Made by a program: the position numbers and the translations under genes
Source of the DNA: Campylobacteraceae bacterium
GTDB taxonomy: Bacteria; Campylobacterota; Campylobacteria; Campylobacterales; Sulfurovaceae
Assembly: GCA_027036015.1 (NCBI GenBank)
Contig: JALVTH010000009.1
Location: 1 to 55,006, forward strand
Length of the DNA stretch: 55,006 bases
Direction of reading: 5' to 3'
Notes under the pieces: generated by a model
What the model saw: the letters and a program-made list of their open reading frames with translations, nothing else
Database searches by the model: none
Told to the model about the DNA's origin: nothing
Shown: piece by piece, positions 18,186 to 22,870 of the stretch
Position numbering within the stretch: position 1 is the stretch's first letter
How the letters are laid out: each line of letters opens with the position of its first letter

Positions 18186-18613
18186 GTGAGGGGATTTTTG
18201 TTTTTCTTTTTATCTTTTTCTTATTTGGTTGTGGTGGAGATGTTTTAAATAATGCAAAAGAAAAATTAACAAAGCAGTCCTATTTTTATAGCGATAGTTG
18301 TTATGAAGAAAATGTTGAGTATCGTTTTTTTGAAACAAAATATAAAAAAATTTTTTACAAAAGTGCGCAATTTCAAGAAATTACAAAAATAAAAGAAGAT
18401 AAAGTGCGTTATTTAGACATGCTACACGTTCAAATAAAAGAAGATACAAACATTTTTACTTGCACTGTTGGAGAAAATGATGAAAATTCTTTAGTTTTAG
18501 TTTGTCTCAATCAAACTGTACACTCTCCTTATGCTAAAGTTATGACTCTATGGAAAATGAAGAAATTAGCAAGAGAAAATAAAGATTACGATTGTGATCC
18601 TTATAGTAATTAA
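18186..18613 (+). pseudogene. lipoprotein gene with a one-base frame break in the signal peptide
   Basis: The frame that ends at TAA 18611-18613 encodes a hydrophobic leader, a lipobox ending LFGCGG, and about 120 residues with five cysteines, but between the dnaE stop (18170-18172, same frame) and the lipobox it has no ATG, GTG or TTG. A GTG at 18186 with AAGGA 7 bases upstream is ideally placed, but reads in another frame that stops at 18246-18248. Adding one base in the G4 run at 18190-18193 would join them to give MRGIFVFLF...GC, a normal lipoprotein signal. So it is either a frameshifted gene, a base-call error, phase variation, or recoding. An internal GTG at 18404 would give only 69 residues. 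No known domain. Confidence 0.6.
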
Positions 18614-19653
18614 TTAAGAAGGATTTTTTTACCAAATGGAACTTCAATATCATGAGTTAAAGCCCAAATGGTTGGATATTTGGGCTTTTGTTGAGGAAAA
18701 TATCCCATAGCATCGGTAAAATAGATTAAAAGAGCTATATCTTCTTTACTTTTAGTTATATAGTCAAAGACAGGGCGAAAATCAGTTCCACCCCCTCCTT
18801 TAAAACTTTGTTTTAATTTTTGCATAGGTTTATATTTTGCAATGTTTCTAATTTTATAATCACACTCAATTAAAATAATTTCATAATTTCTCAATTTAGA
18901 TAAAATTGTGTTAATTTCACTAAAAAAAGTTTCTAAAAGTTCATTCGAAATTGATGCAGAAGTATCAATAGCAATTGCAATTGTAATTTTTTTGGTATAA
19001 ATTGATGGTAAGGTAATATTTTGATATAAAAAGCGTTTATTTGGAGGGTAAAGGCTATAATCTAACTTTACATATTGATTAATAATATGTTGTAAAATCT
19101 GTTGCCAAGGAGTTTTTGTAGGTTTTAGTTTTTTAATTAAGAGTTCAAGTGCTGTTGGCAGTTCTTTTTCAAAAGATGCTTCTTGAATAATTTTTTCAAA
19201 AAGCAAATTATATTCATCATCTTCTATCATTTGAATTTCTTGTTCTTTTTCATTGATATTGCTTTCACTTAATAAAATTGAATAAATCTCTTCTGTTGAG
19301 AGTCTTTCAAAGCGGCTGGAGTAATTTGCCAGAGGAGGAATAACAAAGCCATTTTGTGCCAAAATATTATTAATAGCAAAATCACTTGCTAAATACCATA
19401 AAAATTGTATTTTTCCTTTTCCTCTTTCTTGATGAAAAAAAGCTTGGTGAAGTGCTCCATTAGCTAAGATCGTTTTGATTTCATCTGAATTTAATACTTC
19501 TAAATATTCATTATTGATTTCAAGCAAATCACCTCGGCTTTTAAATGATTTAATATTATTATTAAAAGCAATTTTTAATGGAAGTAAAAGTTTTCCAAAA
19601 AATGGTTCTTCTAAAATGAGTTGTTGTTTGATTTTTTCAATATTTTGCATCAT
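18610..19653 (-). CDS. VWA-domain protein of the DUF2201 type, metallopeptidase site degenerate
   Basis: 347 residues. The C-terminal half is a VWA-like domain with a complete metal-binding MIDAS: DTSAS (Asp230, Ser232, Ser234), GGGGTDF (Thr290) and YFTDAMG (Asp314). The N-terminal half matches the putative metallopeptidase region of DUF2201 proteins, but where HExxH is expected it reads NGALH (about 65-69), so the general base and first ligand are absent. Such proteins are partners of MoxR-type ATPases; here the ATPase gene is directly upstream (5-base gap). It is the last gene of a four-gene minus-strand set and its stop overlaps that of the broken lipoprotein gene. Role unknown; likely substrate or complex handling with the ATPase. 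Confidence 0.75.
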   Translation of the reverse strand: MMQNIEKIKQQLILEEPFFGKLLLPLKIAFNNNIKSFKSRGDLLEINNEYLEVLNSDEIKTILANGALHQAFFHQERGKGKIQFLWYLASDFAINNILAQNGFVIPPLANYSSRFERLSTEEIYSILLSESNINEKEQEIQMIEDDEYNLLFEKIIQEASFEKELPTALELLIKKLKPTKTPWQQILQHIINQYVKLDYSLYPPNKRFLYQNITLPSIYTKKITIAIAIDTSASISNELLETFFSEINTILSKLRNYEIILIECDYKIRNIAKYKPMQKLKQSFKGGGGTDFRPVFDYITKSKEDIALLIYFTDAMGYFPQQKPKYPTIWALTHDIEVPFGKKILLN

Positions 19654-19658
19654 TTACT

Positions 19659-20648
19659 TTATTCTAACAAATCTTCAAAATTTTCAATCCACTCTTCAAA
19701 AGCTTCACACTCTTCAACTTCTACTTGAGCTTTTTGCATATCTTTTATAAGAGCAATTGCAAACTCTTTTGGCAAATTGAGTGAAAATTTAATAATATTA
19801 TTGAGTTCTTTATTAGAAGCTTTTTTTGATTGCATTGTTAAAATGGAATTTAATGCAAAAAGTGTTGCAATATCTTTTGGCACTTCAACATCTTTTCCTT
19901 GTAAAATATCATCAATATTTGGGAGCTTTTCTTTTACTTTTAAAAAATTGACAAATTCATTTGCAACATTGCCAACAGCTCCTTTGATAACTTCTAAAAG
20001 AGAGTTGGTTTTAATATTGCTTTGCAAAATTTTACTTACAAACTCCCAGCTTCTTGGTGTTGCAAAAGCATTTTGTTCGCTTTGTGGATTAAAGGTAAAA
20101 AGCATTTCTTGATGTAGTTGTAAAAATGCAATAACATAGCTATTGATATCATTTTGCAATGCCCACTCTTTCCAATCTTCAAAATCTACATCCATATAAA
20201 GATGAATAAAACGATTAAGCAAAGGAGCACTCATACTAAATGTTGCTCCCATATCACTTTCAAGATTTCCAGCTGCAACAATTGCCCAATTAGAAGGTAA
20301 TTCATACTCTCCAATTTTTCTATCTAAAATAAGCTGATAGGCTGCTGCTTGAATGGTTGGAGGAGCAGTATTAATTTCATCTAAAAATAAAATTCCACTT
20401 CCACTCTTTGGCAAAAATGCAGGAGGTGCCCAAATAGCTTGTTTTGTTTGGGCATCAAAAAAAGGAATACCTTTTAAATCGGTAGGATCTAAAAGACTTA
20501 ATCTTAAATCAATAAAATCTAAGTTTTCTTCTTTTGCTATTGATTTTACAATAGAAGATTTTCCAATTCCAGGGCTTCCCCATATAAAAACAGGAAGTTT
20601 TTTCTCAATTAATACTTTTAGATTTTCTTTTAACTCTTTTGCTCTCAT
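19659..20648 (-). CDS. MoxR-type AAA+ ATPase
   Basis: 329 residues. Walker A is GSPGIGKSS (24-32), Walker B ILFLDEIN (86-93), sensor 1 in AAGNLESD, and the arginine finger region in APLLNRFIHL; SWEFVSKIL follows in the lid. The sequence is of the MoxR/dynein-like AAA_5 group that pairs with VWA proteins to remodel or activate complexes. Its start overlaps the end of the BRCT/LRV gene by 4 bases and the VWA gene follows by 5 bases, so the three are translationally linked. It is distinct from the second MoxR at 50176. Confidence 0.85.
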   Translation of the reverse strand: MRAKELKENLKVLIEKKLPVFIWGSPGIGKSSIVKSIAKEENLDFIDLRLSLLDPTDLKGIPFFDAQTKQAIWAPPAFLPKSGSGILFLDEINTAPPTIQAAAYQLILDRKIGEYELPSNWAIVAAGNLESDMGATFSMSAPLLNRFIHLYMDVDFEDWKEWALQNDINSYVIAFLQLHQEMLFTFNPQSEQNAFATPRSWEFVSKILQSNIKTNSLLEVIKGAVGNVANEFVNFLKVKEKLPNIDDILQGKDVEVPKDIATLFALNSILTMQSKKASNKELNNIIKFSLNLPKEFAIALIKDMQKAQVEVEECEAFEEWIENFEDLLE

Positions 20649-22000
20649 AGATACTCTTTATTTGATTTTATTTTTTGAATTAGTGTTTCATTTTCATTCA
20701 TAATTTGAAGGAGTCTTGGATCAAGTTTGAAATAATCGATATATTCTTGCGGTAAGGATGGGTTTTTTGCTAATTCTTGATTGAGAGTAAAATCATCTCT
20801 TTGACAAAGTTTATATAAAATCTCTTGAGGAGTATTTGGATTACTTGCAAGATAGAGTAAAAGTGACTCTTCTTTAAAAAACTCTTGTAAAAGATAGCTT
20901 GGAGTGTTTGGATTTTTAGCAAGTGATGGTTTGACAATATCACCATATTTTTCTAATAGTTTAATGAGATTTCTTTGTTCAATAAGCGGGTTGATAGCAA
21001 GCTCAATATCAATTGATTGATCAATTAAAAGAGCATCATTTAAAGCTTTTGGACTTTTTTGATTGTGTGCTAAATAGTGGAGATATTTCTTTGGAATGAA
21101 AGAGATATCTTCAATTTTTTGATGCTCTAAAAGGGTTTGAACAACTTCTTTATTTTCATTTAAAAGGGCTTGAAAAACTTCAATATCTAAATTTTCATTT
21201 TTAGCTAAATTAATTTTTGTTTGAAGTGAATTTGCTCTTTGCAAAATTAAAAGCTGTTCTTCTTTATTTATGGCAGGATTTAGTGCTAAAAGAGTATCGT
21301 AACTTTTTTCTCTGAAGAAAAAGGCTTTTGTTTCATTTGATATATGTTCATTTAATGCAATAAAATCATAAAGTTTTTTGGGTTTCCAAGCTTCTTGGTA
21401 GCGTCTTTTAAAGGTAATATTTGGTAAACGAAGCATTGCATCAAGCACTTTAGAATTTGTGGTAGTTAAGGCAATTTCAATTAAAGAAGAAAGTGAATGG
21501 GTAAAATCTAAATGGTTAAATTCAACTCTTTTTGGAAAAAAGCGATTGATAAAACTTAATATTACATCTCTATCTTCATCACTTTCTATTTCATTTTTAT
21601 TCCATTTATACAAGGAAAATAGTTTTAAAAAAAGCTCATCATCTATACCTTTACTTTTTAAAAATGAGACTAAGCGCTTTTGATTGTTTGATAGTTTTAA
21701 ACTCATTAAAAGAGTTTTACTCTTTATATTTTTTGCATAATAACTTTCAAATTCAATGAGAGTGCACTCATTTATCTTTTTTTGATAGAGCTTTTCTAAA
21801 ATATTCTCTTCATCTGGATTTAATAAAGAACTAACTACAACTAAAGCATAATCTACATTTTCATTATAAGTAGTATAAAAAGAAAATCCTATTTTTTGAA
21901 CAAATTTTTCTAAATCTTCTTTACTTATATGAATAAATTTGCCTAAAAAAAGAATTTTTTTAGAAGAAGCATTGTGTAAAATTGTTTCTACTTTATTAAT
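20645..22000 (-). CDS. BRCT-like plus leucine-rich-variant repeat protein, apparent AUU start
   Basis: 451 residues if started at ATT (22000-21998), which has AAGGAG five bases upstream. There is no ATG/GTG/TTG in frame between that ribosome site and the ATG at 21706, yet the 98 residues between read as coherent protein. They look like a BRCT fold: KILFLGKFI, a helix EDLEKFVQKIGFSFYTTYN, strand YALVVVSS, then LYQKKINECTLIEFESYY. The rest (about 99-451) is alpha-helical with LRV-type repeats, clearest near the C-terminus (LAKNPNTPSYLLQEF, LASNPNTPQEILYKL, LAKNPSLPQEYIDYF). It is probably a protein- or nucleic-acid-binding scaffold for the MoxR/VWA pair, which it overlaps by 4 bases. A shorter form from 21706 (353 residues) is the alternative. 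Confidence 0.65.
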   Translation of the reverse strand: MNKVETILHNASSKKILFLGKFIHISKEDLEKFVQKIGFSFYTTYNENVDYALVVVSSLLNPDEENILEKLYQKKINECTLIEFESYYAKNIKSKTLLMSLKLSNNQKRLVSFLKSKGIDDELFLKLFSLYKWNKNEIESDEDRDVILSFINRFFPKRVEFNHLDFTHSLSSLIEIALTTTNSKVLDAMLRLPNITFKRRYQEAWKPKKLYDFIALNEHISNETKAFFFREKSYDTLLALNPAINKEEQLLILQRANSLQTKINLAKNENLDIEVFQALLNENKEVVQTLLEHQKIEDISFIPKKYLHYLAHNQKSPKALNDALLIDQSIDIELAINPLIEQRNLIKLLEKYGDIVKPSLAKNPNTPSYLLQEFFKEESLLLYLASNPNTPQEILYKLCQRDDFTLNQELAKNPSLPQEYIDYFKLDPRLLQIMNENETLIQKIKSNKEYL

Positions 22001-22039
22001 GAGAACTCCTTTTTTATTACCTATAGTAATAAAAAAAGC

Positions 22040-22870
22040 TTAAGGTTTAAGGAAAAAAAGAGCTCCAAGAAAAATTGCAGTTGCTATAAGAAGATGTTTA
22101 CCAATAACACCAATTTGATTTCCAATTTGACAGCTTGTGCATTGGCGATATTTTTTTGCTTCATATTGGGCGTAAAAAAAGTAAACTATCATTAAAATCC
22201 AAGATAGAATATAAGCAAATTTATCAAATTGCCAAAAACTTTGAATATGATTTTTTATCCAAGGACTATAGTTTTTAAGCAAAGGAGCAAAAAGAGTAAG
22301 CCCCATAAAAAAAAGCAATTTTGAGTTAAAACTGGTAATATAATCTTTTTTGCTAAAGAGAGGGCAAACTTCTTCTGGTCTATAAACTCCTTTATCTTTT
22401 AAAGCTTGAATGACTCTATCTCTTTGATTTTGATCTAATCGATAAAGTGGAGTTGCACCAGAGAGATAATCTAATTTTCTTTGAATTGTTGCACTAAGCT
22501 CTTTATCTTCAATAGTCATACTTTTCATATTGCCATTTCTATCTTCAAAAAGAACTTTTATCTTTTCAAAACGAGGAATTTTAAAAGTAATTCCTGGATA
22601 ATAAGAGGTTGTTTCAATACTTTCAAATCTTCCTTCTTTTTGAATGATAGATGGATTAATAAGTTCTAAATAGGAGCCATCTTTTTGTTTAATTACTACA
22701 ATATTAAAAGGATGGGCAACTTGAATAGCACTAAGAGCATTTAAATTATGAGCTTCCATAGTCTCTTTCATATCTTCAAGTAGTTTTGGGAGAGATGGAT
22801 CTTTAAATGAGCGAACTGGCCCACACATAATAATTCTATCATCTGGATATACAACCAACTCTTTTACCAT
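22040..22870 (-). CDS. membrane-anchored pseudo-peptide deformylase
   Basis: 276 residues. Residues about 1-165 follow the peptide deformylase pattern (start LVVYPDDRI, helix, AHNLNALSAIQVAHPFNIVVI, INPSII, PG turn, ELSATIQRKLDYLSG). All catalytic features are changed: the Gly/Ala-rich motif I keeps only Gln50, the EGCLS Cys is replaced (ETTSYYPG), and HExDH is RKLDY (131-135), so both His ligands and the catalytic Glu are lost. Three hydrophobic segments (about 184-200, 216-234, 256-273) and a CxxC (Cys244, Cys247) follow. It is therefore probably a non-catalytic, membrane-bound relative, perhaps binding formylated N-termini. It is the first gene of the BRCT-LRV/MoxR/VWA set. Confidence 0.75.
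   Translation of the reverse strand: MVKELVVYPDDRIIMCGPVRSFKDPSLPKLLEDMKETMEAHNLNALSAIQVAHPFNIVVIKQKDGSYLELINPSIIQKEGRFESIETTSYYPGITFKIPRFEKIKVLFEDRNGNMKSMTIEDKELSATIQRKLDYLSGATPLYRLDQNQRDRVIQALKDKGVYRPEEVCPLFSKKDYITSFNSKLLFFMGLTLFAPLLKNYSPWIKNHIQSFWQFDKFAYILSWILMIVYFFYAQYEAKKYRQCTSCQIGNQIGVIGKHLLIATAIFLGALFFLKP

Follow-up and report, generated by a model that had tools for sequence, protein, structure and literature searches.

A MoxR AAA+, VWA and BRCT-LRV gene trio of Campylobacterota and its neighbouring sulfide:quinone oxidoreductase unit with a pseudo-deformylase

The established pairs of MoxR-family AAA+ ATPases and VWA proteins act as chaperones that help enzyme complexes to mature (PMC3893208). 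In NorQ/NorD, CoxD/CoxE, CbbQ/CbbO and RavA/ViaA, a small MoxR protein adjoins a VWA protein with an intact MIDAS, and no effector domain is present. A study by Kaur et al. 2020 proposed as conflict systems a set of ternary MoxR-VWA systems, in which the pair is joined by a variable but characteristic third component of the VMAP, iSTAND, FtsH or beta-propeller type (PMC7159879). Neither ‘LRV’ nor ‘BRCT’ appears in that study, and a literature search found nothing linking DUF2201 or LRV with MoxR. Pairs of MoxR with a DUF2201 VWA metallopeptidase also occur in other phyla and in phages (phrog_1297/phrog_1314).

The window is a 55,006-nucleotide stretch of DNA from a Campylobacteraceae bacterium (contig JALVTH010000009.1). 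A preliminary description had grouped four of its minus-strand genes, encoding a pseudo-deformylase, a BRCT-LRV protein, a MoxR AAA+ ATPase and a VWA protein, as one set. Their order and their spacings of 39, -4 and 5 bases were borne out by the ORF coordinates. The domain calls for the deformylase, the MoxR AAA and the DUF2201_N plus DUF2201 VWA protein agree with Pfam, in which LRV and BRCT are weak, and the reading of the deformylase and DUF2201 metallopeptidase parts as non-catalytic was upheld by the motif counts given below. The region is nevertheless composed of two units and not of a conserved four-gene system. One contains a sulfide:quinone oxidoreductase (SQR)-like gene, a 57-aa ORF and the pseudo-deformylase, and the other the MoxR AAA+, VWA and BRCT-LRV genes. 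The latter trio resembles the NorQ/NorD-type pairs in its MoxR protein, adjoining VWA protein, MIDAS and lack of effector domains, but differs in that its VWA protein is of the DUF2201/pseudo-zincin type and is accompanied by a third protein. With the ternary systems it shares the plan of MoxR, VWA and a characteristic third component, although that component is BRCT-LRV, effector modules are absent and the bpMoxR model is not matched at its cut-off.

The MoxR-family AAA+ ATPase (19659..20648, minus strand) matches Pfam AAA_3/AAA_5. Its Walker A, Walker B and sensor-1 motifs are intact, with GxPGIGKS, ILFLDE and AGN invariant in the 24 aligned sequences, and its Arg residues are also conserved. 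The VWA-type protein (18610..19653, minus strand), a putative co-chaperone, contains a DUF2201_N pseudo-zincin part and a DUF2201 VWA part (PF13203, 2e-23; PF09967, 7e-25). The MIDAS (DxSxS..T..D) is kept throughout, being found in 48/48 type A copies bar a single gap at either of two alignment columns. The HExxH of the zincin part is replaced by NGALH in the window; all 48 type A copies lack the Glu of this motif and mostly the first His too, while the 15 type B copies all carry HT/HV/HI/HAxxH. Of the 81 sequences compared, 18 are relatives from other phyla, 15 of them with an intact HExxH, and 63 are Campylobacterota copies, none of which has it. By this motif loss the zincin part is judged non-catalytic, and its function is more probably to bind than to cut. 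In other phyla and in phages, the pairs of DUF2201 VWA and MoxR proteins belong to these two families and show this gene pairing, but the copies of other phyla mostly retain the protease motif.

The third trio member is the BRCT-LRV protein (20645..22000, minus strand). Its reading frame is open from an ATT at 22000 to 20645, with no ATG, GTG or TTG before residue 99, where the first in-frame ATG is found. Since the entire N-terminal domain is conserved in the family alignment and a TTG of the sole genus-mate (G237, L221:8732) aligns with the ATT, the latter is probably the start codon. It stands 5 bases after a GGAG. The predicted structure (pLDDT 91.8) shows a helical repeat solenoid beyond the N-terminal domain. 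LRV_2 was matched by Pfam in 20 of 33 family members, a repeat type shared with known LRV proteins, while the window protein scored 19.7 bits, under the cut-off of 27; the LRV model, too, drew hits among the relatives. A fold search with the full-length model returned mostly HEAT/armadillo repeats with poor superposition, and the N-terminal domain was therefore folded separately. These 93 residues gave an AF2 model of pLDDT 93.7 with a β-α-β-β-α-β-α fold, for which most of the top PDB matches are BRCT domains, including those of LigA, RFC1, XRCC1 and REV1 (Foldseek probability up to 1.00, TM 0.5-0.6, best E 2.5e-3). The domain (residues 14-91, β1-α1-β2-β3-α2-β4-α3; 21728..21961, minus strand) is accordingly predicted to be BRCT-like, an assignment resting on predicted structure with a Foldseek E slightly above 1e-3; Pfam BRCT scored 13.7 bits against a cut-off of 21.3. 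The LRV protein of Azotobacter has an N-terminal 4Fe-4S cluster; the N-terminal domain here is predicted to be BRCT-like. An apparent fusion of BRCT-LRV and AAA in one genome (G278, a 955-aa frame) was rejected, since this frame, at the end of a contig, is only an overlapping reading.

The AAA, VWA and BRCT-LRV genes form a co-inherited three-gene set. A survey of 397 Campylobacteria genomes found BRCT-LRV in 69, of which 68 also encode the VWA family, the exception (G278) being cut at a contig end. In 39 of the 69 genomes no more than 4.5 kb separates the two genes, and in 46 no more than 15 kb; in 4 they lie farther apart on one contig and in 18 on different contigs, these linkage counts being lower bounds as they derive from draft genomes. 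In the complete genomes G233, G250 and G293 the VWA gene is retained although it lies 100-950 kb away, and in G233 BRCT-LRV and AAA are still contiguous. In a tree of 102 AAA proteins, all LRV-linked members fall within one 66-member Campylobacterota clade, where BRCT-LRV is adjacent in 50 of 66, versus 0 of the 36 outside it, a few of which are at contig ends. A 12-member subclade without adjacent BRCT-LRV is nested inside this clade, and 4 of its 6 tested genomes encode the protein elsewhere. BRCT-LRV was found in none of the 21 genomes outside the phylum which have such AAA-VWA pairs. The BRCT-LRV protein has so far been seen only in Campylobacterota, on a survey of 397 class genomes and these 21. 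The trend is one of loss of the VWA protease site within one phylum, and gain of a BRCT-LRV partner in one clade thereof.

A separate AAA clade of 15 members (type B) is located among nif genes, with NifQ, an ODP-family flavoprotein, a nitroreductase and an ArsC-like protein. The BRCT-LRV-free AAA subclade is also near nif genes in some genomes. Nitrogen fixation was rejected as the role of the trio because the nif-linked pairs are this separate clade; most trio genomes of a 150-genome sample are without nifH. The type B pair has its own conserved downstream partner of ~233 aa in most loci (L101, L103, L104, L106, L113 and others), with no Pfam match. Homologues of the AAA were found in 793 phage records and of the VWA in 167, with full-length matches of the two families to phrog_1297 and phrog_1314. 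The latter is labelled an HNH endonuclease, yet it aligns over the full length to the zincin-VWA protein (cf. L219, L220). BRCT-LRV itself was absent from the phage and plasmid collections searched, and its spread by either was rejected.

The second unit begins with the SQR-like flavoprotein (24589-23117, minus strand), whose nearest PDB relatives are solved SQRs (phmmer, E 3e-41) and whose orthologues across the class are 56-87% identical. It is followed by the small hydrophobic 57-aa ORF (23093-22920, minus strand), with equivalents in L119 and L221, and then by the membrane-anchored pseudo-deformylase (22040..22870, minus strand). Residues 3-150 of the latter match the Pep_deformylase fold (Pfam, E 8e-24). 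Unlike peptide deformylase, this family lacks the metal-ligand and catalytic motifs and has a C-terminal membrane part. The HExxH of motif III is absent in 23/23 copies, with a Q-containing motif in its place, and the motif II Cys is missing from every aligned copy, so that the protein is non-catalytic on the evidence of its motifs. A C-terminal CxxCQxGN or close variant is kept in all 23. The long pseudo-deformylase is present in 23 of 150 class genomes, including that of the window. In 22 of them it follows an SQR-like gene of the same strand at a distance of 200-600 bases, the exception being G115. The arrangement of SQR, a hydrophobic ORF of ~57-67 aa and a dead deformylase with conserved CxxC recurs as a unit in these 22 genomes (loci L118-L131). 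In Sulfurimonas-type genomes there can be a second, unlinked copy. Nothing connecting deformylase with SQR was found in a literature search. That a dead membrane-bound deformylase is retained next to SQR suggests that sulfide oxidation has a component so far unrecognised.

The reading given somewhat better than even odds (probability about 0.55) is that the trio is a chaperone-type MoxR-VWA remodelling machine with a dedicated BRCT-LRV adaptor, and that SQR, the 57-aa membrane protein and the dead deformylase belong to another unit. The AAA+ ring would burn ATP and the VWA protein would couple to it through the intact MIDAS. The dead zincin domain and the BRCT-LRV solenoid would recognise the client, which would undergo remodelling or maturation and not cleavage, as with NorQ/NorD, CoxD/CoxE and RavA/ViaA. 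It is by analogy with these established pairs that the trio likely remodels a specific client, and that we infer the formation of a complex, the adaptor role and the chaperone-type outcome. Such a machine would add a ternary type to those known for MoxR and VWA. No gene consistently linked to the trio emerged from neighbour clustering as a client candidate, and the neighbours differ between genera, the immediate ones being for the most part housekeeping genes. The trio of Sulfurimonas and Sulfuricurvum has among its flanking genes a PIF1-like helicase, at 17 loci, and an ExoX/DnaQ-like exonuclease, at 12 (L096, L098, L109-L111, L135 and others). Small toxin-antitoxin-like genes, one of them PIN-like by eye, lie between trio members in L094, L097 and L109.

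A conflict or anti-phage system, in which a MoxR-VWA switch would be governed by a BRCT-LRV sensor in the logic of the ternary systems that Kaur et al. 2020 proposed, is considered unlikely. The patchy distribution of BRCT-LRV would fit a conflict or accessory system, as would the phage homologues of the AAA and VWA proteins and the toxin-antitoxin-looking genes inside some trios (L097, L109). However, Pfam, NCBIfam and PADLOC scans of the three proteins found neither a nuclease nor an active protease nor any other effector domain, and none of the VMAP, iSTAND, FtsH or beta-propeller third components. PADLOC returned only generic AAA matches, and the bpMoxR Pfam model scored the window AAA under its cut-off. 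Clustering and a partial Pfam scan of neighbours gave no match to a defence or effector family; the mostly housekeeping neighbours and the lack of BRCT-LRV in the phage and plasmid collections also speak against this role. A DNA-linked remodelling complex, in which the BRCT domain would guide the AAA-VWA machine to proteins of repair or replication, is distinctly unlikely. The top BRCT matches, DNA ligase and RFC1, and the helicase and exonuclease genes point in that direction, but those genes are restricted to one family, where they may be inherited synteny, and are not beside the trio in the family of the window.

That all four genes cooperate, the pseudo-deformylase being a receptor in the membrane that binds formyl-Met chains and feeds the AAA-VWA pair, is highly improbable. 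The tight spacing in the window is in its favour, as is the genus-mate, where the pseudo-deformylase and BRCT-LRV are 2 bases apart. In that genome, however, SQR, the 57-aa ORF, the pseudo-deformylase and BRCT-LRV are contiguous while AAA and VWA lie elsewhere. Although 58 of the 69 BRCT-LRV genomes also have the pseudo-deformylase, it is <2 kb from BRCT-LRV in only 2 of these 58, the window and its genus-mate; the junction is hence a genus-level neighbourhood. Several genomes contain the pseudo-deformylase without the trio. Across the class the trio and the pseudo-deformylase are correlated in their presence (14 of 15 trio genomes), whereas inside the four trio-holding families no association is seen (Fisher p 0.14). 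The shared lifestyle of sulfur-oxidising Campylobacterota, which confounds co-occurrence statistics, is therefore enough to explain the correlation. A four-gene unit is rejected on these linkage counts and on the SQR linkage. What stands of the four-gene set, and of the co-occurrence on which it was to be judged, is the trio; the pseudo-deformylase falls away. As the latter is tied to SQR, the suggested recognition of formyl-Met chains by the trio is left without support. An intermediate reading is quite improbable, in which the BRCT-LRV/AAA/VWA machine is tied to the SQR unit in this genus and matures or repairs a membrane complex of SQR and the pseudo-deformylase, the dead deformylase being a sulfur-handling membrane adaptor via its CxxC.

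The proposed machine would be encoded by three defined genes that can be deleted in sulfur oxidisers amenable to culture. In the window, the pseudo-deformylase and BRCT-LRV genes are separated by a stretch with a perfect inverted repeat of 11 bp, rich in A/T (TTTTTTATTAC/GTAATAAAAAA), at 22005-22035, where it directly precedes the ribosome-binding site of the BRCT-LRV gene.
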